The notes beneath the pieces were generated by a model. The model saw nothing but the letters and a program-made list of their open reading frames with translations, was not told the origin of the DNA and made no database searches. Below, in pieces: positions 4,528 to 64,000 of a stretch of DNA of 64,000 bases (positions are counted from its first letter, which is position 1; each line of letters opens with the position of its first letter). A program made the position numbers and the translations under genes. The stretch comes from an uncultured Anaerolineae bacterium (GTDB lineage Bacteria; Chloroflexota; Anaerolineae; Anaerolineales; Villigracilaceae), in NCBI GenBank assembly GCA_937120535.1, contig CAKZJX010000060.1:1-64000 (forward strand), written 5' to 3'.

Positions 4528-4534
4528 CTCCATG

Positions 4535-5994: not shown

Positions 5995-6020
5995 CAACCC
6001 TGGGCAGGGATCGGTCAAAG

Positions 6021-7028: not shown

Positions 7029-7055
7029 TGAGTTTCTACACCATCAACTAGAAAT

Positions 7056-7589: not shown

Positions 7590-7652
7590 GATACGCGGTC
7601 ACCTCACACAAGGGCCTTTGGTACAGGTCGAGTATACCAAAGAGAATCAACT

Positions 7653-9712: not shown

Positions 9713-9734
9713 TCGGGAACGGCTGAACAGCCGC

Positions 9735-10181: not shown

Positions 10182-10216
10182 GGGTTTGTTCGGACAGCCT
10201 GACGAGGGAGCAGTGG

Positions 10217-12403: not shown

Positions 12404-12460
12404 AAGAAAAGGGATGGGGCGCTGATCACCCTCATCCCACCTATTGCGCTAGGCTCTGGG

Positions 12461-12856
12461 TTAAAGTTGGGAGGTGCAGTGCGGACAGCGTGTGGCTTTG
12501 ATCGGAATGGTGGAGAAGCAGTAGAGGCATTCTTTGGTGGTTGGCTCGGCGGCCGGGGCCGGCGGGGCCGGCTTTTCCACGGCGCTTATCGCTTTGACGA
12601 TAAGGAAGACGGCCGCAGCAATGATCAGGAAGTCCACAAGCGTCTGGATAAATGCCCCGTAGCGCACGGAGGCTTCGCCTACCGTCCAAGCTAGGGAGGA
12701 GAAGTCCACCCGACCTAGCAGCAAGCCGATCAACGGCATCAGGATGTCGTCGACGAAGGAAGCCACGATCTTGCCGAAGGCGCCACCGATGATCACGGCG
12801 ACTGCTAGATCTAACACATTACCGCGCATGATGAATTCTTTGAATTCTTTGAGCAT
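12461..12856 (-). CDS. mscL: Large-conductance mechanosensitive channel with zinc-ribbon tail
   Basis: A 131-residue channel. The N-terminal amphipathic [19 protein letters not shown] and pore helix [11 protein letters not shown] are diagnostic for MscL. TM2 is at about 65-90 ([18 protein letters not shown]). The cytoplasmic helix is replaced by a Pro/Ala linker and a zinc ribbon (CLYC ... CPHC, about 110-128). MscL opens on membrane tension to release solutes in hypo-osmotic shock. The ribbon tail is not in the E. coli protein. AGGAG lies 6 nt before the ATG. Confidence 0.95.
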
Positions 12857-45381: not shown

Positions 45382-49302
<3,921 letters not shown>

Positions 49303-49343
49303 TCGTCTCTCCTGACCGCAGATGACACTTAAAACAATTCAAC

Positions 49344-49359
49344 CTGTCCTGTAGGACAG
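49344..49359 (-). promoter_or_regulatory. Palindrome at the rpoB transcription start
   Basis: CTGTCCTGTAGGACAG is a 16-bp inverted repeat (7-bp arms, 2-bp centre) lying just downstream of the predicted start near 49361. It could be an operator or form a small hairpin at the very 5' end of the mRNA. Confidence 0.45.
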
Positions 49360-49368
49360 CAATCGAAT

Positions 49369-49397
49369 ATTATAGTGGAATATCGTCAGATTGGCAA
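49369..49397 (-). promoter_or_regulatory. Promoter of rpoB
   Basis: TTGCCA (49397-49392), 17-bp spacer, TATAAT (49374-49369) on the minus strand, identical in both boxes and spacing to the tRNA-Pro promoter. The leader is about 60 nt. Confidence 0.8.
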
Positions 49398-49429
49398 GGA
49401 AAACAGCGAGTGTTTCAAAAACAATCACG

Positions 49430-49519
49430 ATGTTTGCACTTTTGGGTTTCCGTGCCATATCTGGCGCTAGGCGACCGCTCGATCCAGCACATATGGTGGT
49501 CTGAAGCTAAAAGTGCAAA
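49430..49519. repeat. Small inverted-repeat element
   Basis: TTTGCACTTTT (49433-49443) ... CCATAT (49455-49460) is mirrored by ATATGG (49491-49496) ... AAAAGTGCAAA (49509-49519), giving imperfect 28-29 bp inverted ends around a 30-bp centre. The left arm recurs at 8596-8626 with one change in 31 bases. There is no coding capacity. It fits a mini transposable element (MITE-like) or a repeated hairpin. Confidence 0.65.
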
Positions 49520-49566
49520 GAAATAATCTTTGGACACCACAACAACCGCTTCAAGAAGCGCAACGA

Positions 49567-49926
49567 TTAATCTCCCTCAACCAGACAAATCTCATCCGTC
49601 TGATTCGGGACAATGCACAAAAACTCGAACGGTTCCTCGCCGATGTTTTCATAAAAGTGCACTACCCCAGCCGGGATGAACACCACGTCTCCTGCCTGAA
49701 CCTCGTACACGGCGTCGCCGATCCCGATGCGCGCCCGACCGCGCAACACATATTGCTCATGCTCTACAGTGTTGGTGTGACGCGGCATGCCTCCCCCTGG
49801 GGCCATAGAGAATTTCCGCATAGCAAAATGAGGGCCCTCTTCAGATGAGATCAGCACCTGGATGGTAGTATCTCTGCCGGCGCTCACCGGCTTCTTCTCT
49901 ACTTCTTCAGCATGTTTGACAAACAT
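49567..49926 (-). CDS. Cupin-domain protein
   Basis: A 119-residue single cupin barrel. Motif 1 is GGGMPRHTNTVEHEQYVLRG (His, His and Glu/His metal ligands) and motif 2 is AGDVVFIPAGVVHFYENIG. The metal-binding set HxHx(3-4)E...H is nearly canonical, so a mononuclear Fe/Mn enzyme or sensor is possible; activity unknown. The ATG at 49926 has GGAG 5-6 nt upstream and is preferred over an in-frame start at 49950 that overlaps recF. Confidence 0.85.
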   Translation of the reverse strand: MFVKHAEEVEKKPVSAGRDTTIQVLISSEEGPHFAMRKFSMAPGGGMPRHTNTVEHEQYVLRGRARIGIGDAVYEVQAGDVVFIPAGVVHFYENIGEEPFEFLCIVPNQTDEICLVEGD

Positions 49927-49939
49927 CACCACTCCTTTC

Positions 49940-51126
49940 TTATCGCTCAACTTTCCCCGCCCGAACCCGCCAGATGTGTGCTGTTTGAAGAAACTCGGCA
50001 GGGAACATCTGAGGATCGGTAGCGGTGAGCACGGACTGCTCAGTCGAATGCAGATATTTTAACAGGTCGCTGCGACGTTGCCCATCGAGCTCGGCCATGA
50101 CTTCATCGAGCAGGATGAGCGGCCACTCCCCCAGGCGAGCTCTCAGCCAAGCCATCTCAGCCAATTTGAGCGAGAGCAGGGCGGTACGAATCTGACCTCG
50201 CGAACCGTAATGTCCTAGATCTATCTGATTGGCCAAAAAACGCAGATCGTCGCGATGAGGACCAATGGTGGTAGCGCCGCGGGCGATCTCTTCCAAGCGC
50301 AACGCACGCAAACGTTCATACAAGCCGCGCTCAATCTCGTCCAACTCCACCCCAGAGCGATCCACAGGAACCTCCAGGCTCAGGGGTAAGCGCGGGATAG
50401 GATCATAGGCCGGCTGATAGGCCAAGCGAAGCACTTCTGTCCCATGAGTTAATTCCAGATGAATGCGGGCGGCTTGCCTCTCCAACTCCTGAACAGCCAT
50501 AATGCGCCATCGGATAATCTGAGATCCGAGTTGGGCCAGAGTCTGATCCCATACCTCCAACTGATCTGGATTGCCACTGCGCTCATTCAGTATCCGAAGC
50601 AACGCATTGCGCTGTTCGAGAGCCTTGTTGTATTCAGCAAGCGTAGCAGCATAAATGGGAACAGCTTGTGCCAGGGCCAAGTTGAGATAACGCCGTCGTT
50701 CCTCCGGTCCGCCTTCGATAACCAATGACATTTGAGGGACAAAGATCACAGCGCTAACTTGGCCAATAGCCTCGCCTATCGATTTTTTCACACCATCGAG
50801 GTATACTTCCTTGCGCAAACGTTGACCATTGGCACTGCTCGATTCCAGGATCAGACGAACTTCGATCTTGTGAGAACGTCGTCCACGCTCAAATTCACCC
50901 ACGATCCTTCCCACCGCCGGCACTTGGCGCGCCTCCAAGAAGTTGATCATCTGTCGATCGGCATGGGTTTGGAACGAAGTCATGGCCGCCAAGAAGTAGA
51001 TTGCCTCCAAGACACTGGTCTTGCCTTGGGCATTTTCCCCCACCAACAATACGGCTCCCTTTGGAAGGTCAATATCGAGGCGCACGAAATTACGAATATT
51101 GGTCAGGGACAGCCGTTTGAGATACA
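49940..51126 (-). CDS. recF: DNA replication and repair protein RecF
   Basis: A 395-residue ABC-type ATPase loading RecA at gaps. YLKRLSLTNIRNFVRLDIDL, Walker A VGENAQGKTSVLEAIYFLA, the signature region GSRGQIRTALLSLKLAE and Walker B LLDEVMAELD are present. The GTG at 51126 matches the standard RecF N-terminus; a longer GTG-initiated frame from 51187 would overlap def by 47 bp. It lies 14 nt after def. The usual dnaA/dnaN/gyrB neighbours are absent, as often outside Proteobacteria and Firmicutes. Confidence 0.93.
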
Positions 51127-51140
51127 CGGTCTGTAGGAGT

Positions 51141-51665
51141 TTAGACTCGGTCTTCCTGTTTGGCTTGGCTTTCGGGCAGCCAGACACGCGTTGCGCGATC
51201 GGTGAAGAGCACCCCGTTTAGGTGATCGATCTCGTGTTGGAAAATGCGCGCCAGCCATCCTGTGGCTTTGAGGCGAAGCGGTTGCCCGCGTCGACTCAAT
51301 CCCTTGAGATGAACCGTTTGATGTCGCTCCACTTCTCCCACGACATTAGGGATCGATAAACATCCTTCCACGCCCATCACCGTTTCCGGCGAAGCCTTAA
51401 CGATCTCGGGGTTGATCACCACCCACACCTTCTTGCGAGTTTGATCTTCAGCGGCCTCGGCCTCTTCGCTCTCGTAGTATTCTACCACAATCACTCGCTC
51501 AGAGACGCTCACCTGAGGCGCAGCCAAGCCCACCCCTGGGGCAGCACGCATAGTCTCGATCATGTCGTCGATCAGGATCTGCAATCTTTTATCAAAAGCG
51601 GTCACCGGCCGAGCTTTGCGGCGCAGCACTGGGTTGGGAACCGTAACGATCGGACGAATAGTCAT
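51141..51665 (-). CDS. def: Peptide deformylase
   Basis: A 174-residue metalloenzyme removing the formyl group from nascent proteins. All three motifs are present: GVGLAAPQ, EGCLS and QHEIDHLNG (Cys plus two His bind Fe/Zn, Glu catalytic). A small insert (ESEEAEAAEDQTRKK) follows the strand after motif 1. It lies 48 nt after the ABC permease gene. Confidence 0.96.
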   Translation of the reverse strand: MTIRPIVTVPNPVLRRKARPVTAFDKRLQILIDDMIETMRAAPGVGLAAPQVSVSERVIVVEYYESEEAEAAEDQTRKKVWVVINPEIVKASPETVMGVEGCLSIPNVVGEVERHQTVHLKGLSRRGQPLRLKATGWLARIFQHEIDHLNGVLFTDRATRVWLPESQAKQEDRV

Positions 51666-51713
51666 GCTTACCTCGTAAGGCGAAACAACCCACTAGAGCA
51701 GCCTCGATCAGCA

Positions 51714-52673
51714 CTAATGTTCGTGCGCCAAGCGGGGGTCTAGGGCATCTCGCAGCCCATCTCCAAGCAGGTTGAATGATAACACAGTTAGCATAATAGC
51801 CAAGCCCGGCAAGAAGACCAAATGGGGAGCAGTAAACACTTGGTTGCGCTCTGCCCCCAGCATCGAACCCCACTCGGGTGTAGGAGGTTGAGCACCCAAG
51901 CCGAGAAACGAGAGCGCAGCTGCATCCAAAATGGCGGAGGCAATACCAAGGGTACCCTGAACGATCAGGGGAGTGAAGGCATTGGGCAAAATGCGACTGA
52001 ACAGGATCAGGGCATCTGATCCGCCGATAGCACGGGTAGCAGTGATGAAATCCATCTCACGCACCGAGAGCACCGAGGCGCGCATCACCCGCGCATACGC
52101 CGGAATGGAGACAATGCCGATCGCCAACAAGGCATTGATCAGGCCAGGTCCTAGCACAGTGACAATGGCAATCGCCAATAGGAGTGAAGGGAAAGACAGC
52201 AACACATCCATGATGCGCATGATGATATTGTCGATCCATCCCCCAAAATAGCCGCTCACCGCGCCCAGGATGGTGCCGATCACGATAGCAAAGGTGACCG
52301 TGGAAAAACCGATGATCAAACTCAGGCGCGCGCCAAACAACAGACGGCTAAACTCATCACGGATATTGCCATCTAAACCGGCTAGATGTTGAGGTTGTTC
52401 CCGTGGGCAGCCGAATAAGTGAATGCAGGGAGGCACTCGGCGTTTGGCATATTCGTGCGGATAGTTTTCAACGTCCAACATGGATAGATTAGGGTCGTAG
52501 GGAGCCAGCCAATCGGCAGTCATGGCGATAAAGACCAGCACGCCTAGAATGGCGAGGCCGGCCAGAGCCGAGCGCCGACGAAACAACCGGCGCCAGGCCA
52601 GCTGCCATAGATTCATGGGACGCAGCGAGAGAGCTTCTGCATCCAGGGAAGTGACTTGTTTCTTCTCTTCCAT
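51714..52673 (-). CDS. Peptide-type ABC transporter permease (DppC-like)
   Basis: A 319-residue permease with about six helices and the inner-membrane EAA loop VREMDFITATRAIGGSDALI-type sequence contacting the ATPase. The N-terminal cytoplasmic tail precedes TM1 LAGLAILGVLVFIAMTADWLAP. The first periplasmic loop contains PPCIHLFGCPREQP, a cysteine pair not usual in DppC. It forms the channel with the DppB-like protein encoded 44 nt upstream. No ATPase genes are adjacent in this window. Confidence 0.92.
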   Translation of the reverse strand: MEEKKQVTSLDAEALSLRPMNLWQLAWRRLFRRRSALAGLAILGVLVFIAMTADWLAPYDPNLSMLDVENYPHEYAKRRVPPCIHLFGCPREQPQHLAGLDGNIRDEFSRLLFGARLSLIIGFSTVTFAIVIGTILGAVSGYFGGWIDNIIMRIMDVLLSFPSLLLAIAIVTVLGPGLINALLAIGIVSIPAYARVMRASVLSVREMDFITATRAIGGSDALILFSRILPNAFTPLIVQGTLGIASAILDAAALSFLGLGAQPPTPEWGSMLGAERNQVFTAPHLVFLPGLAIMLTVLSFNLLGDGLRDALDPRLAHEH

Positions 52674-52717
52674 AGGTCATCTATCGAATATCGAATGCGG
52701 ACCGGCTGTAGCGGCGA

Positions 52718-53797
52718 TCAACGCAGCCGAATGCGAGGATCCAAATAGGCGTAGGAGATATCCACGATCAAGTTGATGATCACAAAAATAATAGCAATGA
52801 CCACCGTAAACGCCTGGACGATCCCATAATCGCGCGCTGTGATGGCATCGTACAACGTCCGTCCTACGCCGGACAGTCCAAAGATGGTCTCCGTCAACAC
52901 CGCTCCACCTAGTAGGCTGCCCAGAGATAATCCAATCACGGTCACCAGAGGGATCAGCGAGTTACGAAATGCATGTTTGAACACTACTGCATGATAAGGC
53001 AACCCTTTAGCTCGAGCAGTGCGGATGTAATCTTGCCCGAGCACGTCCAGCATGGCCGAACGTGTGATGCGGGCGATCAGAGCCATGGGGATGGTGCCTA
53101 AAGCCAGAGCCGGTAAAATCAGATGTTGTATTGCATCCTTGAGCAGAATCCAGTTGGCTGTCAACAAGGCGTTCAGAATATTCAACCGGGAAATGAAAAC
53201 GTATAGGCCGGCCAGAAAACCGTTTTCTGGGAATGAGAGGTTCCAAACCTCATAAAAAGGTGTATCGGGCACGCCGGGTGTGAGGCGACCTGAAGGGGGT
53301 AGCCAGAACGATGTATCTTTGAGCAACAGCGAAAAAACATAAGCTAACATCAAGCCTAACCAGAAGACCGGCATAGATACCCCGATATTGGCCCAGATCA
53401 TCGTCAGCACATCAATCCAGGAGTTGTGTCTCACCGCCGCCAGGATTCCCAGGGGAATGCCGATCACCATCGCCACCGAGAGGGCTGCAAAACTCAGTTC
53501 TAGGGTAGTAGGAAGACGCTCCACCAAAAGCCGAGTCACCGGCATGCTGTAACGGAAGGATTGGCCAAAATCGCCGCGAGCGATCTCCCCCAAGTAGACC
53601 CAAAATTGCACGAGGATGGGACGATCCAAACCTTTTTCGCGGATAAAGCGATCACAGACCTCTTGAGTGGCCCTCTCACCTAAAATTGCTCGGCATGGAT
53701 CTCCTGGAATGACCCGTGCCAGGGTGAAGGTCACCAGGAGAATACCGAACAAGACAGGGAGCGAGGAAAGGAAACGTCGAACGATATATTGGATCAT
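52718..53797 (-). CDS. Peptide-type ABC transporter permease (DppB-like)
   Basis: A 359-residue permease: YIVRRFLSSLPVLFGILLVTF opens TM1, and the EAA motif is GQDYIRTARAKGLPYHAVVF. The periplasmic loop before TM4 is longer than usual (LPPSGRLTPGVPDTPFYEVW), accounting for the extra length. The first loop has a Cys pair (GDPCRAILGERATQEVC). It lies between the binding-protein gene (93 bp upstream, with a hairpin between) and the DppC-like gene. Confidence 0.92.
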   Translation of the reverse strand: MIQYIVRRFLSSLPVLFGILLVTFTLARVIPGDPCRAILGERATQEVCDRFIREKGLDRPILVQFWVYLGEIARGDFGQSFRYSMPVTRLLVERLPTTLELSFAALSVAMVIGIPLGILAAVRHNSWIDVLTMIWANIGVSMPVFWLGLMLAYVFSLLLKDTSFWLPPSGRLTPGVPDTPFYEVWNLSFPENGFLAGLYVFISRLNILNALLTANWILLKDAIQHLILPALALGTIPMALIARITRSAMLDVLGQDYIRTARAKGLPYHAVVFKHAFRNSLIPLVTVIGLSLGSLLGGAVLTETIFGLSGVGRTLYDAITARDYGIVQAFTVVIAIIFVIINLIVDISYAYLDPRIRLR

Positions 53798-53821
53798 ACG
53801 AGGAGTTCCTTGCTAGTTGGC

Positions 53822-53856
53822 CATACGGGATGGCGGGCTCTCCGCCATCCCGTATG
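53822..53856 (-). other. Intercistronic hairpin between binding protein and permease genes
   Basis: CATACGGGATGGCGG (53822-53836) pairs perfectly with 53842-53856, a 15-bp stem with a 5-nt loop and no T run. In ABC importer operons such a hairpin commonly stabilises the binding-protein mRNA or partly blocks readthrough so that binding protein exceeds permease. Confidence 0.7.
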
Positions 53857-53889
53857 AATTGCCTGGATGCAGAAGGAGGGGATCACTGA

Positions 53890-55662
53890 TTACTGGCCGG
53901 GTTTCTTCATCAAGCCCCAGAGGTAATCGTAGTAATCCCAGAGATTGGTGTTGCCCGCATGGGTGGGCGAAGCGATGTTGAGGCCCATGTTGAACGTGGC
54001 CACCACATCATAGGCATCGAAGTCCGTGCCGTCGTGGAATTTGACACCCTTGCGCAGCGAGCAGGTCCAAACCGTCAGATCGGCATTCGGATCGCAAGAC
54101 TCGGCCAGAACGGGGACCACATCAGTGCCATTGATGGTGAAGCCATACAGGGCCTCCATCACCTGTTCGCATGCCCGAAGCGACTCGCCATCCGATTCGT
54201 CGGCGCAGAACAAGCTGATCGGCTCTGCATTCTGCATCCAAACGAAAGTGTCCCGATCGCCGGGCTTGGAGAAGGCAAACAACTCGTTGCCCAACGGGCT
54301 AGCTTGCGGGTTGGTCACGTCAGCCCGATAGGCCGTGGCCGAACCGCCGTGTGCCACAGGCACCATCGGCACCAGTTCCCGAATGGCGTTGTTGGCCGCT
54401 ACATAGTATGGTTCGGATTGTTTTGGATCGACGATTTGGGCGCCCTTTTCCAGATTGTCATAGATTTCTGGGAAGGGATTGCCAAACTGTGGGTTAGCCC
54501 GCCCAAAGTGGAAGTCCAAGAAGTTGGTGACGTGAGGATAGTCGGCGGTCCACCCGAGCAGATACAGACCATCCAGAGAACCCGCGCTGGAGGCTTCGAT
54601 GAAGGCCCCCGACTCCATCAGCACGATCTCGGCGTCAATGTTCAAGTTGTTCTTCAACTGGGCCTGGATGTCCTGCGCCACGTTCGACACCTGGGGCAGG
54701 TAACCGCGCACTACGTCGCGATAGTACAGCTTGGTCTTGAAGCCATCGGGGAAGCCTGCCTCGGCCAACAATTGGCGCCCTGCCTCAGGATCGAAGTCGT
54801 ACCATGCATCGCCCACGCAGCCGTTGGGAATCGCACAAGGTGTGAAATGGCTGGCGACCTCCGAGCCGGGCGGATAGAACTGATCCACGATGCGCTGGCG
54901 ATCGATGCCCATGGCGATCGCTTTGCGCACCCGAACATCATCCCATGGCTTGAAGGTGTTGGTGATGCCGATATAGAAGATGTTCAGGGCCGGCCGGATC
55001 ATCAGTTGCAGGTTCGGATCGTTGCGGATCACTTCAAAGTCATCGGGGCCGACGTTATCGATCCCGTCCACGGTGCCGGCCTGCAACTCCAGCAAGCGTG
55101 CTGCCGACTCGGTAGACCAGCGGAAGATCAACGTCTTGGCTGCCGGAGGCTCACCATAGTAATCCGGATTGGCCACAAAGGTGATGCTTTCACCGCGCTT
55201 CCATTCCTGGAGAATATATGGACCGGTTCCAACCGGTTTCTCCAATCCCTCGCTGGTGCGCTTTCCATCCTTGGCGGTTGCTTCCAACCATTCCGAAGGA
55301 TAGATGGAGAAGACGTTGAAGGCGATCTTAGACAGGAAAGCCGGATCGGGGCGGCACAGGGTGAAGACCACCGTGTGATCATCCGTAGCCACCACCGATT
55401 GAATCAAGCCCGTATAATCGCCGTTGCACTCCTCCGGCGGCACCGACAGGCTCTTGCCATCATACGTGGCAATCGGAATGTCTGCAGGCGGAGCTGGTTC
55501 GGTGGCCGGCGGAGGGGTAGGTTGGACGGCAGGAGGTTGAGTAGGTTGAGCAGGAGCCGGCAGCTTGGTCGCTGGGGGCTGGGTAGCAGACGGACCACAA
55601 GCTGCCAAAACCAAGGCTGCGATCAGCGCTGCAGTCATCAAGGCAAATAGCTTTTTTCTCAT
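53890..55662 (-). CDS. Peptide-type ABC substrate-binding lipoprotein, apparently circularly permuted
   Basis: A 590-residue family-5 (SBP_bac_5) protein with a lipoprotein signal peptide (LALVLAAC, Cys22 lipidated) and a Pro/Thr-rich tether (23-66). The domain order is rearranged. It begins with the middle of a normal family-5 protein (SVVATDDHTVVFTLCRPD, GTGPYILQEWKRGE, RVRKAIAMGIDRQRI, about 85-470). It ends with what is normally the N-terminal segment: NAEPISLFCADESDGESLRA, YGFTINGTDVVPVLAES and LRKGVKFHDGTDFDAYDVVA (about 470-590). The old termini join at about residue 470. Eight cysteines follow the lipobox, suggesting disulfides. GGAGGAG precedes the ATG. Confidence 0.9.
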   Translation of the reverse strand: MRKKLFALMTAALIAALVLAACGPSATQPPATKLPAPAQPTQPPAVQPTPPPATEPAPPADIPIATYDGKSLSVPPEECNGDYTGLIQSVVATDDHTVVFTLCRPDPAFLSKIAFNVFSIYPSEWLEATAKDGKRTSEGLEKPVGTGPYILQEWKRGESITFVANPDYYGEPPAAKTLIFRWSTESAARLLELQAGTVDGIDNVGPDDFEVIRNDPNLQLMIRPALNIFYIGITNTFKPWDDVRVRKAIAMGIDRQRIVDQFYPPGSEVASHFTPCAIPNGCVGDAWYDFDPEAGRQLLAEAGFPDGFKTKLYYRDVVRGYLPQVSNVAQDIQAQLKNNLNIDAEIVLMESGAFIEASSAGSLDGLYLLGWTADYPHVTNFLDFHFGRANPQFGNPFPEIYDNLEKGAQIVDPKQSEPYYVAANNAIRELVPMVPVAHGGSATAYRADVTNPQASPLGNELFAFSKPGDRDTFVWMQNAEPISLFCADESDGESLRACEQVMEALYGFTINGTDVVPVLAESCDPNADLTVWTCSLRKGVKFHDGTDFDAYDVVATFNMGLNIASPTHAGNTNLWDYYDYLWGLMKKPGQ

Positions 55663-55756
55663 TTCTCCTCCAAAAGAGTGGCTTGGGTTCGATGGAAGAT
55701 CAGTCCAGCAACAGGTGTTCTAACCTCCTTTCCAACATCCCGGCAAAGCTAGCCAA

Positions 55757-55762
55757 ATTATA
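55757..55762 (-). promoter_or_regulatory. -10 box of the ABC transporter operon
   Basis: Minus-strand TATAAT about 95 nt before the ATG. A TTTGTT lies 16 bp further upstream as a weak -35; the closer TTGACG is only 10 bp away, too near to act with it. Confidence 0.5.
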
Positions 55763-56138
55763 ACAGCAAAATCGTCAAAACAAACTCCCCAGGGATGTTG
55801 GAGAGTGGATAAAAAGGGTTTTTTTCACACAGAGACACAAAGACACGGGGAGGCTCTGTGGTCTACGTGTTGGGTTCCCATGCGACTCACGTTGCACGGC
55901 AGGGTGGAGGCCGGATCCCAAGCACAGGCCGACCCCGAAGGGAAGAACGCCGAGCGAGGCCGTGATCTCGCTCGCCTGGCGCGACGCTCGCGCTGTTTTT
56001 CGCGTGGTCCAGAAGCCTGGAAGGCAGCCTGGAAGATTTTTCTGTACTGCTTCCACTGCCGTCCGTGGCGCAAGCAGCGTTTTCCGAACTATCCCGCTCA
56101 TGTGTTTCAGTTTATCAACCCATAATTTAGCCGCTCCC

Positions 56139-56209
56139 CTACCGGGCTCTCCTTACGCGTCAAGGGTACTTATTGAACAAGCCCTCTTTTACTTACTCAT
56201 GCACGGTAG
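56139..56209. repeat. Dispersed hairpin repeat, copy B (opposite orientation)
   Basis: Read on the minus strand it opens CTACCGTGCATG and closes GTAAGGAGAGCCCGGTAG, with GTTCAATAAGTACCCTTGAC inside. It matches copy A at 45030-45084 except for a 13-base insertion (AGTAAGTAAAAGA), a 2-base GT insertion and a few substitutions. Confidence 0.65.
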
Positions 56210-56339
56210 GAATTCGAGATGCTCTTGGGCGAGTGGGCATCTCTTCTTGGTTTGAACAGCCCCAATGGCTGTATGCCCGCTTTTTGAGGGTGATCTTATG
56301 GATTTTCATCAAAGCTCTAACGAAATGTCAACCTTTCCT

Positions 56340-56371
56340 TATCGTATCTCCAACAGGGAGTGGATACGATA
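56340..56371 (+). promoter_or_regulatory. Inverted repeat upstream of hsp20 (operator candidate)
   Basis: TATCGTATC (56340-56348), 14-nt spacer, GATACGATA (56363-56371), perfect arms, 38 nt before the TTG start. It is not the CIRCE element (TTAGCACTC-N9-GAGTGCTAA) bound by HrcA. It may be the site of another heat-shock repressor or a leader hairpin. Confidence 0.5.
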
Positions 56372-56409
56372 CAGGTACTTCAACGGTATAGCCAAGAAAG
56401 GAGAGAGCC

Positions 56410-56811
56410 TTGACGTTCTATATTCGACCCATTTCCTATCGTCGGTATATTGCCCCCCGTCGCTGGATGCGGATGGCAGAGGATGAAACGACCTATAAAC
56501 TGGCAGTCGATGTGCGCGAAGAAGACGATGCGTTTGTGTTGACGGCACTGACACCAGGTTTGAAGGCCGAGGATGTGACCATCACCGTGTTGGACGATAT
56601 AGTGACCATCGAGGGTGAATTCAAGCGCGACGATAATAAGGAGTACCTGATTTGTGAGCTGCCACAAGGTGCATTTCGCCGTTCATTGCGCTTACCCACC
56701 TCCATCGAGACCGGAAAAGCAGAGGCTCGGATTACCGATGGCGTGCTCACATTGCGCCTGCCCAAGGCCGAATCGGCCCGTTCCAAGACGATTAAAGTGA
56801 TGGCCAAGTAG
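56410..56811 (+). CDS. hsp20: Small heat shock protein (Hsp20/alpha-crystallin)
   Basis: A 133-residue ATP-independent holdase. The alpha-crystallin domain covers about 30-125: FVLTALTPGLKAEDVTITVL, VTIEGEFKR, GAFRRSLRLPTSIE and the closing ARITDGVLTLRLPKAE. The IxI-type tail is only weakly present (TIKVMAK). The TTG at 56410 is used because AAGGAGAG lies immediately upstream at proper distance. A strong terminator follows. Confidence 0.92.
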   Translation: MTFYIRPISYRRYIAPRRWMRMAEDETTYKLAVDVREEDDAFVLTALTPGLKAEDVTITVLDDIVTIEGEFKRDDNKEYLICELPQGAFRRSLRLPTSIETGKAEARITDGVLTLRLPKAESARSKTIKVMAK

Positions 56812-56834
56812 TGGCTAAGCAGGCAGGGCATTGA

Positions 56835-56868
56835 CTTCCGAAGTCGCTTAGGCTTCGGAAGGTTTTTT
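56835..56868 (+). terminator. Intrinsic terminator of hsp20
   Basis: CTTCCGAAG (56835-56843) pairs with CTTCGGAAG (56853-56861), followed by GTTTTTT. The end touches the stop codon of the convergent mevalonate kinase gene. Confidence 0.85.
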
Positions 56869-57799
56869 AAGATGCACCGACTTGGGTCACAATCACCTCT
56901 CGGGCGCCGGCCCGGCGCAACGCCTGTTCTACTCGGGCAGTGTCGCCGGCCTCTACTAGAGCGATCATGTTGCCCCCACGACCACCGCCGGAGAGTTTAG
57001 CTCCAAGTGCACCGACCCGTCGAGCGGCCTCTACCAACCGATCAAGTTCTGGCGAAGAGACGGTCAACTGTTGCAATAGTGCGTGATTAACATCCATTAG
57101 GGGGCCAAGCTCATCAATTTTGCCCTGTTCTATGGCCTGTCGAGCCAGGCGAACGATATGACCGATTCGATCAAAGATTATCTCCCAGCGTGTGGGATCG
57201 GATTCCCACAGTTTCCGAACATCGGCCACGGATTGGCGGGTGGGTGCGGCGATGCCAGTATCTCCGATCAGCAAGGTAAATGGCCGGCCCGCGCTCAGCG
57301 GCTCGGGAGGACGACCCTTGATAAAGTATACTGGTTTGGCATAGGTGATCACGGTGTTGTCGATGCCTGAAGGGGTGCCATGATGCAGTTTCTCGATCTC
57401 ATAAGCACAGGCGTTGACGTCGTCAGGTGAGAGAGGATGACCGAGAAAGGCCGATAGGGCGCGGAGGAGAGAAATGGTGACAGCTGCTCCAGATCCTAAG
57501 CCGGAGGCAATGGGAATGGTCGAGGCGATGTGAATCTCGAGAGCGGGAGGCGAGGAGATGCCCAGGCGGTGGAAAACGATCTGGATGGCCGACCCGATGG
57601 GGTGTCCGGCAGGAAGCGAGGTCAGGTCGGTGTGCAGGGAAATTTGAGGAGCGTGGATCCAGACTCCGGGGCGGGGCGATTCGGCAACGGTGGTTTCTGC
57701 ATAGACGCAATTCACCGGGACAGCCAAGGCCGGCTGGCCATAGACGACCGCATGTTCGCCAAAGAGGATGATCTTGCCAGGTGCCGAGGCGGTGACCAT
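56867..57799 (-). CDS. mvk: Mevalonate kinase
   Basis: A 310-residue GHMP kinase. It has the N-terminal SAPGKIILFGEHAVVYGQPA, the ATP-binding PIASGLGSGAAVTISLLRAL (Gly where Ser is usual in GLGSSAA) and the C-terminal KLSGGGRGGNMIAL. The conserved HGTPSGIDN loop carries the catalytic Asp. It phosphorylates mevalonate for isopentenyl diphosphate synthesis. A mevalonate pathway in bacteria is uncommon but known in Chloroflexota. It starts 3 nt after the UbiA stop with no Shine-Dalgarno, so it is probably translated by reinitiation. Confidence 0.95.
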   Translation of the reverse strand: MVTASAPGKIILFGEHAVVYGQPALAVPVNCVYAETTVAESPRPGVWIHAPQISLHTDLTSLPAGHPIGSAIQIVFHRLGISSPPALEIHIASTIPIASGLGSGAAVTISLLRALSAFLGHPLSPDDVNACAYEIEKLHHGTPSGIDNTVITYAKPVYFIKGRPPEPLSAGRPFTLLIGDTGIAAPTRQSVADVRKLWESDPTRWEIIFDRIGHIVRLARQAIEQGKIDELGPLMDVNHALLQQLTVSSPELDRLVEAARRVGALGAKLSGGGRGGNMIALVEAGDTARVEQALRRAGAREVIVTQVGAS

Positions 57800-57802
57800 G
57801 GC

Positions 57803-58675
57803 TTATTGTTGAAAGTAGAAGATGATCAGGAGGGCAATGCCAAACAGGACAATGGCAATTTGTATGGGGCGATCGGAGAGCAACACTTCTTCGGGAGCGC
57901 CGGCATCATGGGTGACTTGGATGATGTAGAGATAGCGAAAAATGATGTAGACGATAAAGGGAATGGTCAGCATCATGCTGTGGTTGGGGGGTAGGTTGGG
58001 CGCCGAGAAGGTGTAGAGGGAGTAGGCTAGGATGGTGGCAGCCGAGACGATGGTAACGTATTGGTCGAGCAGAGGGATGGTATAGCCTTCAAGGACTTTG
58101 CGATGGGAGCCCGCCCCTTGATTGAGCAAGGCTAATTCGGCGCGGCGTTTGCCAAAGCCCAGGTAGAGCGAGCCTAGGGTGGTTACAACGTAGAGCCAAG
58201 GTGAGAAGCGCTCCACAGTAATCAGCGTGGTGCCAGCATGTACACGTAAGACAAAGCCAGCCGCTACAATCAGCACATCTACGATGGGAATGTGCTTTAG
58301 CCAACGGGAATAGGCGAGATTGAGCAGGAAGTAGAACACGATTACTTGACCGAATCCCGTCGAGAGTAACCAAGCCATCCCGATGGATAGGGTGGCTAAG
58401 AGGAAGCCGGCGATCCACGCCACCGACAGGGGAAGCTGACCAGAAGGGAGCGGGCGTTTTCGTTTTTCGGGATGCAGGCGATCGACTTCGAGATCGGCTA
58501 GGTCATTGAAGATATAGACGGCACTGGAGATCAAGCAGAAGAGAAGGAATCCAGCCAGGGTGCGAGCAAACGGTTCGGGCTGGAAGAGTTGTTTGTCGAA
58601 CACGAGGGCGAAGAATACAAATCCATTCTTCGTCCAGTGGCGCAGGCGCATGGTTTTGAGGAGAGCGACGAGCAT
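57803..58675 (-). CDS. UbiA-family prenyltransferase (DPPR synthase type)
   Basis: A 290-residue membrane protein with about nine helices. The first aspartate-rich motif is NDLADLEVDRLHPEKRKRPL, and GFGKRRAELALL lies before the second acidic region. Both resemble decaprenyl-phosphate 5-phosphoribosyltransferase. It would attach a polyprenyl phosphate to PRPP for cell-envelope pentose donors; other UbiA acceptors cannot be excluded. Pairing with mevalonate kinase suggests an isoprenoid operon. The ATG at 58675 follows a TATAAT by 7 nt (leaderless). Longer frames upstream read antisense through tlyA and are not real. Confidence 0.88.
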   Translation of the reverse strand: MLVALLKTMRLRHWTKNGFVFFALVFDKQLFQPEPFARTLAGFLLFCLISSAVYIFNDLADLEVDRLHPEKRKRPLPSGQLPLSVAWIAGFLLATLSIGMAWLLSTGFGQVIVFYFLLNLAYSRWLKHIPIVDVLIVAAGFVLRVHAGTTLITVERFSPWLYVVTTLGSLYLGFGKRRAELALLNQGAGSHRKVLEGYTIPLLDQYVTIVSAATILAYSLYTFSAPNLPPNHSMMLTIPFIVYIIFRYLYIIQVTHDAGAPEEVLLSDRPIQIAIVLFGIALLIIFYFQQ

Positions 58676-58682
58676 GGGGGAG

Positions 58683-58733
58683 ATTATAAGCGAGGAAAGG
58701 GGAGAGCAGGAGAGCAGAGAGGAGGGATATAAT
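58683..58733. promoter_or_regulatory. Back-to-back leaderless promoters of ubiA and tlyA
   Basis: TATAAT on the minus strand at 58688-58683 lies 7 nt before the ubiA-type ATG, and TATAAT on the plus strand at 58728-58733 lies 6 nt before the tlyA GTG. Only 64 bp separate the two start codons. Between the boxes is a purine-rich GGAAAGGGGAGAGCAGGAGA tract with no -35 match. Confidence 0.65.
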
Positions 58734-58739
58734 GATGGT

Positions 58740-59549
58740 GTGGCAAAAGTAAGGCTGGATGTGTTGTTGACAAAGCGTGGGTTGGCTGAATCACGGGCAA
58801 GGGCACAGGCGTTGATCTTGGCCGGCCAGGTGCGGGTGAAGGGACAGATAACGCTTAAGCCCGGGACGATGGTCGGCGAGGATGTGGTGATCGAGGTCAT
58901 TTCAGGGCCGCGATTCGTCTCGCGAGGGGGAGAGAAGTTGGATGCAGCGCTGAGTCGCTTTGGCTTGGATGTGCATGGCTTGGTCTGCGCTGATGTGGGC
59001 GCTTCTACCGGCGGATTTACCGATTGTTTGTTGCAGCGCGGGGCACATAGGGTGTATGCGATCGATGTGGGGAAGGGTGTGTTACACTGGAAGTTGCGCA
59101 ATGATCCCCGGGTGATTGTAATGGAGCAGACCAACGCTCGTTTTCTAGAGGCGCTGCCCGAGCCAATCGATTTGGTGACAGTGGATGCTTCGTTTATTTC
59201 GCTCAAGTTGTTGTTGCCGGCCCTCTGCCAATGGTTGAGGCCGGCCGAGGGAAGGGAAACGTCCACGGAACAAGGCGCTGGGATTGTGGCTCTGATCAAG
59301 CCGCAATTTGAGGCCGGCCGTCAAGAGGCAGCGCGCGGGGAAGGAGTGATCCGCGATCCGGCCATTCATCGCCAGGTCTTGTTGGACATATTGACATTTG
59401 CTCAACAACAGGGGCTGGGTATACATGGCCTGATGCGCAGTCCACTCTTGGGGCCAAAAGGGAATGTGGAGTTTTTGGTTTGGTGGAGACCCGGCAGAGG
59501 GGAGTCGGAGCCGGCCCAATGGGTTGAACGGGTGATGAAGGAGGCTTAG
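58740..59549 (+). CDS. tlyA: TlyA family rRNA 2'-O-methyltransferase
   Basis: A 269-residue protein. The S4 RNA-binding domain (1-60, RLDVLLTKRGLAESRARAQA) is followed by an FtsJ-like methyltransferase with SAM motif ADVGASTGGFTDCLLQRGA and catalytic-type K/D/K residues (DVGKGVLHWKL, VTVDASFISLK, ALIKPQFEAG). In mycobacteria TlyA methylates 16S C1409 and 23S C1920 and confers capreomycin sensitivity. The GTG at 58740 is used because of the -10 box 6 nt upstream and the standard N-terminus. Confidence 0.93.
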   Translation: MAKVRLDVLLTKRGLAESRARAQALILAGQVRVKGQITLKPGTMVGEDVVIEVISGPRFVSRGGEKLDAALSRFGLDVHGLVCADVGASTGGFTDCLLQRGAHRVYAIDVGKGVLHWKLRNDPRVIVMEQTNARFLEALPEPIDLVTVDASFISLKLLLPALCQWLRPAEGRETSTEQGAGIVALIKPQFEAGRQEAARGEGVIRDPAIHRQVLLDILTFAQQQGLGIHGLMRSPLLGPKGNVEFLVWWRPGRGESEPAQWVERVMKEA

Positions 59550-59551
59550 GG

Positions 59552-60502
59552 TCAGGAAAGCGCCAGGTTGCGACGCGCTTCGTCTAGAATCTCATCGATC
59601 GTCAGATTGGATCGGTCCGTGCGGGCCGGGTGATAATGAACGTGAACGCGCAACACGTTGGGAATGTTTTCGCTGATCAGACGTTCGACAGCGGTGGCAA
59701 TGATATCCCCTTCTGAGACGCTCAGGAAGCCATCAATGCCGATGGTCATGTTGATGACGATGTGCGGGCCGAAACGATGGGCTTGAAGTTCCTCGAGTTG
59801 GATCACGCCATCTACTTGTTGTAGGTGATGAACGATCTGCTCAGCGAGAACGCGACTAGGGACGGCATCCATGAGTTCGATGGAGGACTCGCGGAGGATA
59901 AAGATACCGGTGCGTAAAATGAGCAACGCTACTAGGGCGCCGGCCAAGGGATCGAGCCAAGGCAAACCACGTTGACCGAAGAAGATGCCCAGCGAGGCCG
60001 CGCCGGCGGAGAAGATATCGTTGCGATGGTCGTAGGCCAAAGCAAACACGACCGGATGATGGATCTGGTTGGCCAACCGACGGGTATAGAAGAACAAGGC
60101 AGTTTTGAGAACAACTGTGCCTAAGGCAACCCAGAGTGCAACATCGGCTGCACCTTGAGAGATTAAGACGCCGTCTAGCATGTCCCAGATCTTGTCCAAG
60201 GCGTCCCAGAAGATCGTAATCGCTGTGACCACGATGAACGCACCCACAGTCAACGAGGCAATGCTCTCGAGTTGGTGATGTCCATATGGGTGCTCGGTAT
60301 CGGCTGGCTTGTTGGCCAAGCGGACAAAGATGGATGTAACGACATAGGAGGCCACATCAGAAGTGGAATTGATCCCTTCAGCCAACAGGGCTGGGCTGTG
60401 TCCCACCACGCCGACAAACGTCTTCACCACCGAAAGTAGGATATTGGCTAGAAGGCCAAGGTTCACTGCCAACAGGCTTTTGCGTTCCCGTTCGTGATGC
60501 AT
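59552..60502 (-). CDS. Cation diffusion facilitator, probable Mn2+ efflux type
   Basis: A 316-residue CDF protein with six helices and a C-terminal ferredoxin-like domain (about 215-295, LEELQAHRFGPHIVINMTIG). The transport site in TM2 is NSTSD and in TM5 DHRND, the N/D-D-D-D pattern reported for manganese CDFs such as MntE, rather than the HxxxD of zinc transporters. The start at ATG 60502 (MHHERERKSL) follows TACAAT by 6 nt; the longer frame upstream includes repeat sequence and is unlikely. It ends 2 nt from convergent tlyA. Confidence 0.88.
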   Translation of the reverse strand: MHHERERKSLLAVNLGLLANILLSVVKTFVGVVGHSPALLAEGINSTSDVASYVVTSIFVRLANKPADTEHPYGHHQLESIASLTVGAFIVVTAITIFWDALDKIWDMLDGVLISQGAADVALWVALGTVVLKTALFFYTRRLANQIHHPVVFALAYDHRNDIFSAGAASLGIFFGQRGLPWLDPLAGALVALLILRTGIFILRESSIELMDAVPSRVLAEQIVHHLQQVDGVIQLEELQAHRFGPHIVINMTIGIDGFLSVSEGDIIATAVERLISENIPNVLRVHVHYHPARTDRSNLTIDEILDEARRNLALS

Positions 60503-60508
60503 ACTGAG

Positions 60509-60537
60509 ATTGTAGTCCGATGTCAACCAGGAGACAA
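60509..60537 (-). promoter_or_regulatory. Leaderless promoter of the CDF gene
   Basis: TTGTCT (60537-60532), 17-bp spacer, TACAAT (60514-60509), then 6 nt to the ATG. This is the best-formed -35 among the leaderless promoters in the window. Confidence 0.7.
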
Positions 60538-60876
60538 TAGCCAAGTTGTCGACAATCTTAGGAAACGATACTGAACGGGGACCGTTCCAAGAACAGTACG
60601 ACACTGTAACATTTTTGGCGGGTTTGGAGAGGATCAAACGCTAGGCCGTTCGATGGTGAGCAAAGCCGTCAACGAATTGGGACAACGAATAAACGAAGGC
60701 ACATTGCTCTTCGCTGGGAGGGTTCAGGCCAACGAGCACTTGCTCATAAATTGTCTTTGTTCTGCCGTTCGTTGACGGTAACTTTGACCGCATCTGCTAG
60801 ATCGGCAAAGAATTTTCGAATGCTCTTGTCAGGTTTTGAAAAAAGGCGAGCTCCTCGTAAGATGGGAGGTGATAGA
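60538..60876. other. Intergenic region with repeat traces
   Basis: 60603-60624 nearly repeats 786-807. CCGTCAACGAA (60666-60676) and TTCGTTGACGG (60768-60778) are perfect 11-bp inverted copies about 90 bp apart, perhaps ends of a small element. No coding frame with a ribosome site until 60877. Confidence 0.45.
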
Positions 60877-61110
60877 TTGCATCGAAGAAGAACTTTGCCA
60901 GAATTGCACGCCCAACTCTCTCAGGAGTGGCAGCCGGTGCTCGACCGCCTCCTGGAGGCGCTGACCGCCTTGCCCTGCGATGGGGACAAGGCGTTATACC
61001 AGCTGTGGGAACAGCTTCCCGGACGGACCAGTCAGCCGGACGAGCGACGCACGCCCTCGGAAAAATTGCGTGCTTTGATCCTGCGCCTGAGCCAGGATCG
61101 GGCGAGATAG
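60877..61110 (+). CDS. Small protein of unknown function
   Basis: 77 residues from TTG 60877: HRRRTLPELHAQLSQEWQPV, then LDRLLEALTALPCDGDKALY and LRALILRLSQDRAR at the end. Helical and amphipathic, one Cys, no membrane segment. GGGAGG at 60864-60869 with a 7-nt spacer is a strong ribosome site and decides the start. No family recognised; flanking sequence contains repeat traces, so it may belong to a mobile element. Confidence 0.45.
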   Translation: MHRRRTLPELHAQLSQEWQPVLDRLLEALTALPCDGDKALYQLWEQLPGRTSQPDERRTPSEKLRALILRLSQDRAR

Positions 61111-61355
61111 ATTCAGTTCGCTCATGACCCGGCCATTCCTTGGACGAATCACCGCACCGAACCAATGATTGGGCGAATCAAACACCGAGCCGAGCGTGTT
61201 CGAGGCGATAAAACTACCGCTGGTCTACTAGCGGGAAGCCTGGCAGCGGCTTAGTTTTGGACAGAGAAGCGCCAAATGCTCTGGGCAGGAGTGGGCCTTT
61301 TGCTCTTGTCGTATTTTTGCCCACCAAATTTGTTACAGTGCACCCTCCGCAGTTC
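61111..61355. other. Gap before the str operon
   Basis: No gene seen in these 245 bases between the small protein and the rpsL promoter; no strong hairpin or repeat recognised. Confidence 0.4.
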
Positions 61356-61384
61356 TTGACGTAACACGAAGCGCGTGATACAAT
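61356..61384 (+). promoter_or_regulatory. Promoter of the rpsL-rpsG-fusA operon
   Basis: TTGACG (61356-61361), 17-bp spacer, TACAAT (61379-61384). The predicted start is near 61391, giving a leader of about 128 nt. Confidence 0.8.
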
Positions 61385-61438
61385 CTAACACCGTTATTTC
61401 TCAGCTCGTTGTCTTGCTTCAGTGAAAGGTTTGGAACA

Positions 61439-61473
61439 AATGAGGCCATCCGGCTGGTTGTGATGGCCTCATT
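61439..61473 (+). terminator. Terminator-like hairpin in the rpsL leader
   Basis: AATGAGGCCATC (61439-61450) pairs with GATGGCCTCATT (61462-61473), a 12-bp perfect stem with an 11-nt loop followed by TTCTGG. It lies in the leader, 45 nt before rpsL, so it may be an attenuator or a regulatory protein-binding stem rather than the end of another gene. Confidence 0.55.
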
Positions 61474-61518
61474 TTCTGGAAAGACGTCTTCTGCTAATTT
61501 TGTGTTTGTGGAGGCAAT

Positions 61519-61935
61519 GTGCCCACGATCAACCAAATTGTTCGTAAAGGTCGCAAGACCAAGAAGGTCAAGAGCAAAGCGCCAGCTTTGCAATATACAC
61601 TCAACTCGTTCACGCAGCGCCGTGTTCGTCAGCCAGGCGGCGCGCCGCAGAAGCGTGGCGTATGCACCGTTGTGCGTACGATGACCCCGAAGAAGCCTAA
61701 TTCCGCGCTGCGCAAGATTGCCCGCGTCCGCTTGACGAACGGCATCGAGGTGACTGCCTACATCCCCGGCGAGGGACATCAGCTGCAGGAGCACTCGGTG
61801 GTCTTGGTGCGCGGCGGTCGTGTGAAGGACCTGCCTGGTGTGCGCTACCACATCGTGCGCGGGGCCCTGGACACGACTGGCGTGACCAATCGCAGGCAGG
61901 GCCGCTCCAAGTACGGCGCTAAGCGTCCGAAATAA
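61519..61935 (+). CDS. rpsL: 30S ribosomal protein S12
   Basis: A 138-residue S12, starting at GTG 61519 with GGAGG upstream: [20 protein letters not shown]. The decoding-site loop [20 protein letters not shown] has wild-type lysines at the streptomycin-resistance positions. [20 protein letters not shown] is intact. First gene of the str operon. Confidence 0.97.
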
Positions 61936-61950
61936 GACGGTAGGTAGACG

Positions 61951-62418
61951 ATGAGACGAGGAACCCCTGAGCGACGCATCATTATGCCGGATCTGCGCTA
62001 CAACAGCGTGACCGTGCAGAAGATGATCAACCACGTTTTGTCGCGCGGAAAGAAAAGCCTGGCTACGCGTCTGGTCCACGACGCTCTGGACATCATCCGC
62101 GAGAAGACTCAAAAGGACCCGATCGAGGTCTTTGAAACGGCATTGAAGAACGTCGGACCCATTATGGAAGTTCGGCCGCGCCGAGTGGGCGGCGCAACCT
62201 ATCAGGTTCCGATGGAAGTGCCGGCCCATCGCCGCCTCACCCTGGCGATTCGTTGGATCCTCGATGCGGCGCGCCAACGACCGGGCAAATCCTTCCCCGA
62301 GAAACTGGCGGCCGAGCTGATGGATGCGGCCAACGAGACGGGCAACGCTATCCGCAAGCGCGATGAAACTCATAAAATGGCCGAGGCCAATCGTGCCTTT
62401 GCGCACTATCGTATCTGA
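61951..62418 (+). CDS. rpsG: 30S ribosomal protein S7
   Basis: A 155-residue S7: MRRGTPERRIIMPDLRYNSV, then VGGATYQVPMEVPAHRRLTL and RKRDETHKMAEANRAFAHYR. It binds the 3' major domain of 16S rRNA and nucleates 30S head assembly. It starts 15 nt after rpsL. Confidence 0.97.
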   Translation: MRRGTPERRIIMPDLRYNSVTVQKMINHVLSRGKKSLATRLVHDALDIIREKTQKDPIEVFETALKNVGPIMEVRPRRVGGATYQVPMEVPAHRRLTLAIRWILDAARQRPGKSFPEKLAAELMDAANETGNAIRKRDETHKMAEANRAFAHYRI

Positions 62419-62441
62419 TCTCGAAGTAGGTAATTCTTTTT

Positions 62442-64000
62442 ATGGCACGCGAGTATCCGCTGGAGCGATATCGGAACATCGGCATCATTGCCCATATTGA
62501 CGCCGGAAAGACGACAACCACCGAGCGAATCCTGTTCTATACCGGTCGCACTCATCGCTTGGGATCGGTGGATGAGGGCACGACGGTCACGGACTGGATG
62601 GAACAGGAGCGCGAGCGGGGGATTACTATCGTTTCGGCGGCTGTCTCGGCCGACTGGAAGGGCTATCGCATCAACCTGATCGATACCCCTGGCCATATTG
62701 ACTTCACGGCCGAAGTCCAACGTTCGCTGCGCGTCCTGGATGGTGGCGTGGTGATCTTTGACGCTGTGCAAGGCGTGGAGCCGCAGTCGGAGACGGTCTG
62801 GCGACAAGCCGATCGCTACGGCGTGCCTCGCATCTGCTTTGTCAACAAAATGGATCGCGTGGGCGCTTCCTTTGAGTGGACCATTCAGACCATCCAGGAT
62901 CGCCTAGGCACCAATCCGATCCCGATGCAGCTTCCGATTGGATTTGAGTCATCCTTCCGGGGCGTGGTTGACCTGCTGACCATGAAGAGCTTTGTCTGGG
63001 AGGACGAAATGGGCCGTGAGATCAAGGAGATCGAGATCCCGGCCGAGCTGCGCACCCAGGCAGAAGAGGCACGCATGCAATTGGTGGAGCGGATTGCCGA
63101 GCTGGATGACGATCTGACCGTCAAGTACCTAGAAGGCGAGACGATCACCGTGGAGGAACTCAAACGCGCGCTTCGCAAAGCCGTGATCGCTAACCGCGCC
63201 ACACCCGTTTTCTGCGGATCGGCCCTTCGGAACAAGGGGATCCAGCTTTTGCTGGATGCGGTGATTGATTACTTGCCCTCCCCGATCGATATTCCGCCCG
63301 TGCGCGGCACCGACCCGGACCAGCCGGAGACGATCATCGAATTGCCGGCCGACGATAACGCTCCGCTCAGCGCCTTGGTCTTTAAAATCGTGAGCGATCC
63401 CTACGTAGGCCGCTTGGCCTACTTCCGAGTCTACTCCGGCACGCTGACCCAAGGCACGATGGTATACAACTCCACCAAGGGCAAGCGGGAGCGAATTGGT
63501 CGTCTACTGCGCATGTATGCGGATCGCCGCGAGGAGATTACCGAGGTGCGCGCCGGCGACATTGCTGCTGCACTGGGCTTCAAAGAGACGTTTACCGGCG
63601 ATACATTATGCGATAGCCGAAAGGTCGTGCTCGAGAGCATCACCTTCCCTGAACCGGTGATTTCGGTGGCCATTGAGCCTAAGTCGAACGCCGATCAAGA
63701 GAAGATGAGCGAAGCCCTGCGCAAGCTCTCCGAAGAAGATCCGACGTTCCGTGTGCGCACCGATGAAAACACCGGTCAGACCATCATTTCCGGTATGGGC
63801 GAGCTTCACCTGGAAGTGCTAGTAGATCGCATGTTGCGCGAATTTCGGGTGAAGGCCAACATCGGTCAGCCTCGCGTAGCCTATCGGGAGTCGATCACCC
63901 GCAAGGTGCCGCGCGCCGAAATGCGATATGTCAAGCAGACCGGTGGCCGTGGTCAATATGGACATGTGGTCTTGGCCCTAGAGCCTGTCGAACGCGGCAG
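62442..64000 (+). CDS. fusA: Elongation factor G (3' end outside window)
   Basis: The first 519 or so residues are present. G1 is [19 protein letters not shown], switch I includes [10 protein letters not shown]3 is DTPGHIDF and G4 is NKMD. Domain II follows ([19 protein letters not shown]) and then the start of domains III-IV ([14 protein letters not shown]). It catalyses ribosomal translocation. The frame is open to the last base. The ATG at 62442 lies 23 nt after rpsG; only a weak AGTAGG ribosome site precedes it. Confidence 0.97.

Follow-up and report, generated by a model that had tools for sequence, protein, structure and literature searches.

A circularly permuted SBP_bac_5 lipoprotein gene in an Anaerolineae bacterium and its relatives among the Chloroflexota

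The window analyzed here, a stretch of 64,000 nucleotides from an uncultured Anaerolineae bacterium, contains a lipoprotein gene whose product begins with the middle of the SBP_bac_5 domain and ends with the segment that normally opens this family. The order raises the question of whether the gene is a truncated or misassembled family member or a true circular permutation and, in the latter case, how the rotation arose and whether the protein still serves a peptide importer. We consider it very probable (roughly 0.9) that the gene encodes the peptide-binding lipoprotein of a Dpp-type ABC importer and was circularly permuted in an ancestor. The ancestral gene would have been permuted, likely via tandem duplication followed by loss of the outer parts, attaching the old N-terminal block (N-block) behind the old C-terminus by a short linker and placing the new termini in the old loop between the N-block and the middle part. 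The single chain would fold into the usual two-lobed cluster C shape, capture a short peptide between Arg319 and Asp374, and hand it to DppB/DppC as unpermuted DppA does; the mechanism of the rotated protein would be conventional.

To our knowledge, natural circular permutation among transporter binding proteins is represented by one cluster B case. Treponema pallidum Tp0684 (TpMglB-2, 'Cluster Bc') is, like the window protein, a natural circularly permuted, lipid-tethered ABC substrate-binding protein; according to the accessible part of its description, its N-terminal strands are shifted to the C-terminus, and the protein binds ligand and changes shape (PMC4990184). TpMglB-2 has a cluster B sugar-binding fold, whereas the window protein belongs to SBP_bac_5, cluster C, so the definition of 'Cluster Bc' (cluster B/Type I fold with a permuted N lobe) does not extend to it and the principle alone is common to both. 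The moved part of TpMglB-2 shows only 13% identity in the accessible text (PMC4990184), whereas the moved block of the window protein is clearly homologous. A second cut site, a twice-permuted form, and fusion, all found in the Chloroflexota family, receive no mention for TpMglB-2 in that text. An abstract-level literature search, largely without subscription journals, found no paper on permuted SBP_bac_5 proteins; PMC2588589, in its accessible part, mentions SBP_bac_5 and cites a circular-permutation paper with the two unconnected, and that of PMC7312458 provides background on cluster C domains.

Segment order and predicted fold

The coordinates and frame that a sequence-only reading had assigned to the gene were borne out, as were the ATG start and the lipobox (Table 1). 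PF00496 (SBP_bac_5) matches the protein in two stretches (Pfam, E 4.7e-80), and its score of 269.9 bits against a curated cut-off of 32.4 places the protein in the family; this homology is not in doubt, and it is the swapped order that defines the variant. Profile positions 62-365, corresponding to residues 84-390, precede positions 2-56, which lie at 53956-54120 on the same strand, downstream of the first stretch; the segment order is thus not that of OppA and DppA. Comparison with PDB sequences by phmmer pairs residues 83-462 with 3m8u 122-502 and residues 472-578 with 3m8u 4-117 and, for DppA (1dpe), residues 86-462 with 123-501 and residues 504-580 with 35-117. Custom HMMs of the middle/C-terminal part and of the N-block each match the window protein once, the former ahead of the latter. 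The permuted order proposed by the sequence-only reading therefore stands on the agreement of Pfam, phmmer, and our own HMMs, with limits that differ from those first given: the N-block spans about residues 472-588, not 470-590, and the mature domain begins at about residues 79-84. The window protein has no duplicate of the N-block ahead of residue 85, and a second N-block match was found in none of the 197 ORFs with any match to these HMMs in the loci examined; together with the confident single-chain model described below, this supports the proposed true circular permutation rather than a truncation. Annotation that expects a single collinear match may misjudge such proteins as broken. No Rfam match was found within 48000-64000.

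Table 1. Coordinates of features in the window and of permuted genes at related loci
Feature	Position	Strand	Basis
Permuted SBP_bac_5 lipoprotein gene, 590 aa, ATG start	53890..55662	-	Pfam, sequence
Signal peptide, residues 1-22, lipobox LAAC with Cys22	55597..55662	-	sequence
Pro/Ala/Thr/Gln-rich tether, about residues 23-66	55465..55596	-	sequence
SBP_bac_5 middle and C-terminal part, residues 83-462, now first	54277..55416	-	Pfam, phmmer, HMMs
Linker from old C-terminus to old N-terminus, about residues 463-471	54250..54276	-	alignment
Old N-terminal block (N-block), about residues 472-588, now last	53899..54249	-	phmmer, Pfam, HMMs
Cys79 and Cys103, pair at new N-terminus (predicted disulfide)	55354..55428	-	conservation
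Arg319, aligned with DppA Arg355 (precursor Arg383, dipeptide carboxylate)	54706..54708	-	phmmer alignment
Asp374, aligned with DppA Asp408 (precursor Asp436, dipeptide amino group)	54541..54543	-	phmmer alignment
DppB-like permease, Glu41-Arg42 at scoop-loop position	52718..53797	-	Pfam, alignment
DppC-like permease (OppC_N and BPD_transp_1)	51714..52673	-	Pfam
Twice-permuted SBP_bac_5 (scar: once-permuted tail joined to head)	L085 1134-2927; L224 1572-3602
Second-site-only permuted SBP_bac_5	L230 2705-4816; L231 3145-5271; L266 1456-3585
First-site permuted SBP_bac_5 (N-block last), L230 subfamily	L270 1471-3519

The fold of the window protein was predicted with AlphaFold2 from 64 rows. These included the window protein itself, five relatives of permuted order, and L085 as two pieces; the other 56 were normal-order pieces, obtained by separating the middle part from the N-block in 28 genes out of a list of 32 normal-order genes. 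An earlier model from six permuted rows was poor (pLDDT 64.6, pTM 0.56), whereas the 64-row model is a confident single chain holding all parts (pLDDT 94.8, pTM 0.92), so that the separate domain named as refuting by the sequence-only reading did not appear. Within the moved block, ten-residue means of pLDDT are at least 90 except at the last residues, which disfavors the N-block being a separate domain. Residues 1-404 of the model align with 3m8u 123-531 (Z 31.2, rmsd 2.6, 390 residues) and residues 1-403 with DppA 1dpp (Z about 31); Foldseek TM-scores reach 0.69 by query length, where 390 of 525 residues would permit about 0.74. These alignments cover model residues 1-406 and are silent on the moved block, so the two-lobed cluster C fold is indicated by alignment for residues 1-404 and by model confidence for the moved block. 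Model confidence and homology suggest that the C-terminal block completes lobe I. From homology to OppA, the cut presumably falls in domain II, and the opening part of lobe I together with a portion of domain II would then come from the moved block.

The moved block might instead pack on a neighboring molecule and give domain-swapped dimers or longer chains, since packing in cis and in trans is indistinguishable from sequence, and tandem copies and double binding proteins do exist. We consider this very unlikely: the confidence of the monomer model extends to the moved block, and the linker is short, with little variation in length (median 13, range 10-18, 76 rows), as fits a closed permuted chain.

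Operon context and ligand-binding residues

The lipoprotein gene is followed directly by genes for DppB-type and DppC-type permeases, in keeping with the permease operon recognized earlier, and then by a peptide deformylase gene. No ATPase gene is present in the operon after the lipoprotein gene (51141-53797), and the oligo_HPY-type ATPases of the window genome lie on contigs C26 and C29. The window protein shares with E. coli DppA the SBP_bac_5 cluster C family, the residues aligned with R355/D408 (mature numbers), and the permease type; unlike the window protein, DppA has the normal order, and it is 27-28% identical to the model over the common part (1dpp, 1dpe). The NCBIfam equivalog model of DppA, NF043070, gives 176.7 bits against a cut-off of 1005, which leaves the protein outside that equivalog.

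In the accessible part of PMC12136057, an arginine and an aspartate of DppA bind the ends of the dipeptide, and the same residues contact E41 and R42 of the DppB scoop loop. Their counterparts in the window protein, R319 and D374, were assigned by a manual count along the phmmer alignment, and both are aligned and conserved: of 76 once-permuted rows, 68 keep R319 and 70 keep D374, while of 93 normal-order rows, 55 keep D374 and 41 keep R319, with 43 gaps at the latter column. DppB proteins encoded beside once-permuted genes carry an acidic-basic pair at positions 41-42 in 44 of 50 cases, and those beside normal-order genes in 23 of 52. R319/D374, the scoop pair of DppB, and the permease neighbors together indicate that the rotated protein most likely captures short peptides and docks as usual; its rotated order aside, it most likely functions like an ordinary DppA-type protein. 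The earlier suggestion that new termini might alter docking on the permeases found no support, as the scoop-loop contact residues are kept on both partners.

It is very unlikely that the window protein has become a sensor or scavenger that keeps the fold and is no longer a transport subunit. Such a role would accord with the lack of an ATPase gene in the operon and with the 21 of 75 relatives that have no DppB/C-like gene start within 600 nt (54 of 75 do; the 75 are those of the 80 permuted rows with at least 1 kb of downstream sequence). Against it speak the DppB and DppC genes directly next to the window gene, the conserved ligand and scoop residues, and the B, C, D, and F genes present in, for example, L082, L083, L085, and L237. 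Peptidase genes beside the transporter were considered as a hint to the substrate and set aside as too weak, being found at 2 of 38 permuted loci (at least 7 kb) versus 2 of 70 others.

Occurrence of the permuted order across genomes

The sequence-only reading had pointed to Chloroflexota genomes as the place to look for the same order, and there it recurs in a large family. Within the class, at least 120 of the 298 genomes searched, the window's own included, contain relatives that stay colinear with the window protein from the middle part through to the far end of the N-block, with 126 of the 150 rows listed in the search with the window protein colinear over this span, and at least six further genomes have rows crossing the junction only. 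These counts are lower bounds, with at most four candidates scored per genome, and the absences are not strict, many genomes having been scored for part of their candidates. Full-span matches occur in at least four single-contig genomes (G010, G027, G030, G228); among the class matches listed, identity to the window protein falls to about 31%, and among the full-span rows listed, that of G269 has a stop inside the matched stretch.

A junction-only profile (A2; 38 rows, 210 positions) applied to 400 genomes of the phylum found the junction spanned in 58, again including the window's own (62 of the 90 rows listed), and at least 24 of these 58 genomes lie outside the window's class. Of the 62 junction-spanning rows listed, 57 score above 230 bits; the other five score 108-149 bits, where non-spanning rows listed reach 158 bits, and comprise the second-site form described below (G568, G611) and diverged first-site forms (G657, G607, G638).

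Outside Chloroflexota the permuted form is rare. In searches at E 1e-38, the junction was spanned in three of 246 genomes of Actinomycetota (the Streptomyces phylum), with N-block-only matches in four; one of 337 genomes passed in the class of Devosia, namely Devosia sp. FKR38 itself; and among 249 genomes of the phylum to which the Clostridiaceae MAG BRH_c20a belongs, none spanned it and 34 had N-block matches. Searches at E 1e-30 found the junction spanned in none of 98 genomes of the Tychonema phylum (N-block matches in 11) and no match in 101 genomes of the phylum of a Geothermarchaeota MAG. Diverged permuted proteins may escape both thresholds. Among the best 80 of 561 loci in a search of genome contigs, the window's order was found in L081, L082, L083, and L084 (two genes) and a further segment order in L085; L081 and L085 are Chloroflexota records that coincide in contig and place with two genomes of the window's class, G042 and G109, which points to Chloroflexota as the source of the window too. 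A search of viral contigs gave three weak relatives.

That the segment order is an artefact of metagenome assembly or binning has a practically negligible probability and was rejected: although the window genome is a 140-contig draft and many matches come from drafts, the same junction is common to many genera, with relatives diverged down to about 31% identity among the matches listed, and is present in the four single-contig genomes and in the Devosia isolate on a 2.7 Mb contig. The Devosia gene (L083), judged from this distribution, was likely acquired by transfer from a Chloroflexota-like source; at 3856-12662 it stands with dppB, C, D, and F and adjoining M20 and M24 peptidase genes. At L227, L228, and L229, a strongly diverged permuted gene has as its neighbor a normal-order SBP_bac_5 gene encoded on the other strand.

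Unpermuted SBP_bac_5 proteins with the N-block in its usual place occur in the same phylum as well (L041, L042, L047), 33-36% identical to the window protein; L041 carries SBP_bac_3 in front, as many permuted proteins do, and L042 and L047 are similar in length and order.

Repeated cuts, cysteines, and fused modules

In a wider and tentative reading, to which we would give a little short of an even chance, Chloroflexota rotated the cluster C fold repeatedly and adaptively at two preferred points, relocating the N-terminal attachment and, in the main clade, stapling the new N-terminus with cysteines. The first point would be the N-block loop, cut in the widespread main form and by a separate event in L270; the second would be a site before the VRxA helix, cut in L085/L224 in series after the first and in L230/L231/L266 separately. 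If this holds, rotation shifts the lipid tether or a second binding protein elsewhere on the protein, and a cysteine pair absent in unpermuted relatives marks the main clade.

To trace the first cut within the main family, 173 rows, from which 17 ORFs with both parts were left out as duplicates or incomplete, were thinned by identity to 81 and then to 52. In the quick tree of 81 rows, 24 once-permuted and two twice-permuted rows form one clade (SH-aLRT 100), and seven other once-permuted rows branch as a grade, with normal-order L050 and L044/L045 placed close to them or in their midst. The free trees need four label changes, of which starred branches force three (81 rows) or four (52 rows); an AU test on 52 rows did not reject a single permuted clade (p 0.246). 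The position of normal-order L050, L044, and L045, which fall near or among permuted rows, may reflect reversion, separate origins, or tree error.

L085, from a Thermoflexales MAG, and L224, 91% identical to it and from a second genome, carry the late-middle part, the N-block, and the early-middle part in this order; full-length matches to L085 occur in only these two among 150 class genomes. Their spacer from the N-block to the middle part is 25 residues long and contains EAPNCDYGG, where the heads of once-permuted L084 and L056 carry VEAPNCDYGG; across 93 normal-order rows this spacer has a median length of 3 (range -12 to 14). Given this scar with a once-permuted head motif, and the place of both genes inside the main once-permuted clade with starred support (81-row and 52-row trees), we conclude that L085 and L224 were permuted twice in series. 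As the twice-permuted form joins a once-permuted tail and head, tandem duplication followed by loss of the outer parts is the likely route; tandem pairs of permuted genes (L069, L084, L232, L233) indicate that the required duplications do occur, and a duplicated intermediate of the form N-MC-N was seen in none of the 197 ORFs with a match. The coexistence of unpermuted, once-permuted, and twice-permuted forms in one large clade, with a readable scar, makes the permutation route testable.

Separate events are suggested by L230 and L231, from the window's order (Anaerolineales), which are cut at nearly the same second point as L085 and lie far from it in the tree, where they occupy a long branch. 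When 61 genomes of this order were searched with L230, 12 contained relatives. Ten of these are normal-order in one frame, with L230 residues 346-702 followed by 79-343, the nearest unpermuted one (L267, G111) being 64-66% identical to L230; L266 is colinear with L230 residues 8-704, and the twelfth (L270, G1892) opens with the middle part and closes with the N-block, as does the window protein. The second cut thus arose at least twice. Because L270 lies among normal-order relatives, the first cut very likely arose twice as well, the permutation of L270 being apparently separate from that of the window's clade. Such close unpermuted relatives again make the permutation route testable. The N-to-middle spacer of L230/L231 (34 residues) is longer than that of L085; a scar was rejected here, since unpermuted L267 and L268 align straight across it, as across a natural loop.

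Eight of the nine cysteines of the window protein lie in the mature domain, as four close pairs that co-occur among relatives. Cys 276/282, 523/534, and 486/498 are paired in 53, 46, and 61 of 76 once-permuted rows, with one cysteine alone in 0, 0, and 1, whereas 93 normal-order rows have cysteine at these six positions in 0, 0, 0, 0, 0, and 3. Cys103 is present in 65 of 78 first-site permuted rows, the twice-permuted included, and in none of the 93 normal-order rows; all 65 have a second cysteine no more than 18 residues ahead of the middle part (59 within 10 residues, 63 within 14), and the remaining rows have neither cysteine (11) or the head cysteine alone (2). As these counts come from related, non-independent rows, the pairs are a lead to disulfides rather than proof, though one that predicts checkable bonds.

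According to the accessible text of PMC4990184, permuted relatives of TpMglB-2 are probably tethered, and the authors suggest an adaptation to anchoring. Of 80 permuted rows, 56 show a crude lipobox pattern and some of the remainder are truncated, which fits that idea; the Devosia homolog L083, which shows no lipobox, argues against a strict requirement for a tether. The question that follows is whether the position of the tether on the binding protein matters for transport.

Modules ahead of the permuted domain, sought by BLAST with chosen domains in 80 rows, are SBP_bac_3-like in 16, Peripla_BP_6-like in five, and LysM-like in four. Pfam, applied to nine permuted examples and one normal-order example, identified SBP_bac_3 or Peripla_BP_6 in all except L054. 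The permuted SBP_bac_5 domain stands behind SBP_bac_3 or one to two Peripla_BP_6 domains in L021, L024, L037, L069, L075, L076, L077, and L080, which, judging from their domain content, are double or triple binding proteins in one chain; the existence of the normal-order fusion L041 shows that fusion can occur without permutation. In L051, L054, L055, and L078, a LysM-like module, recognized by eye and BLAST, lies ahead of the permuted domain, that of L054 being a part without a Pfam match.
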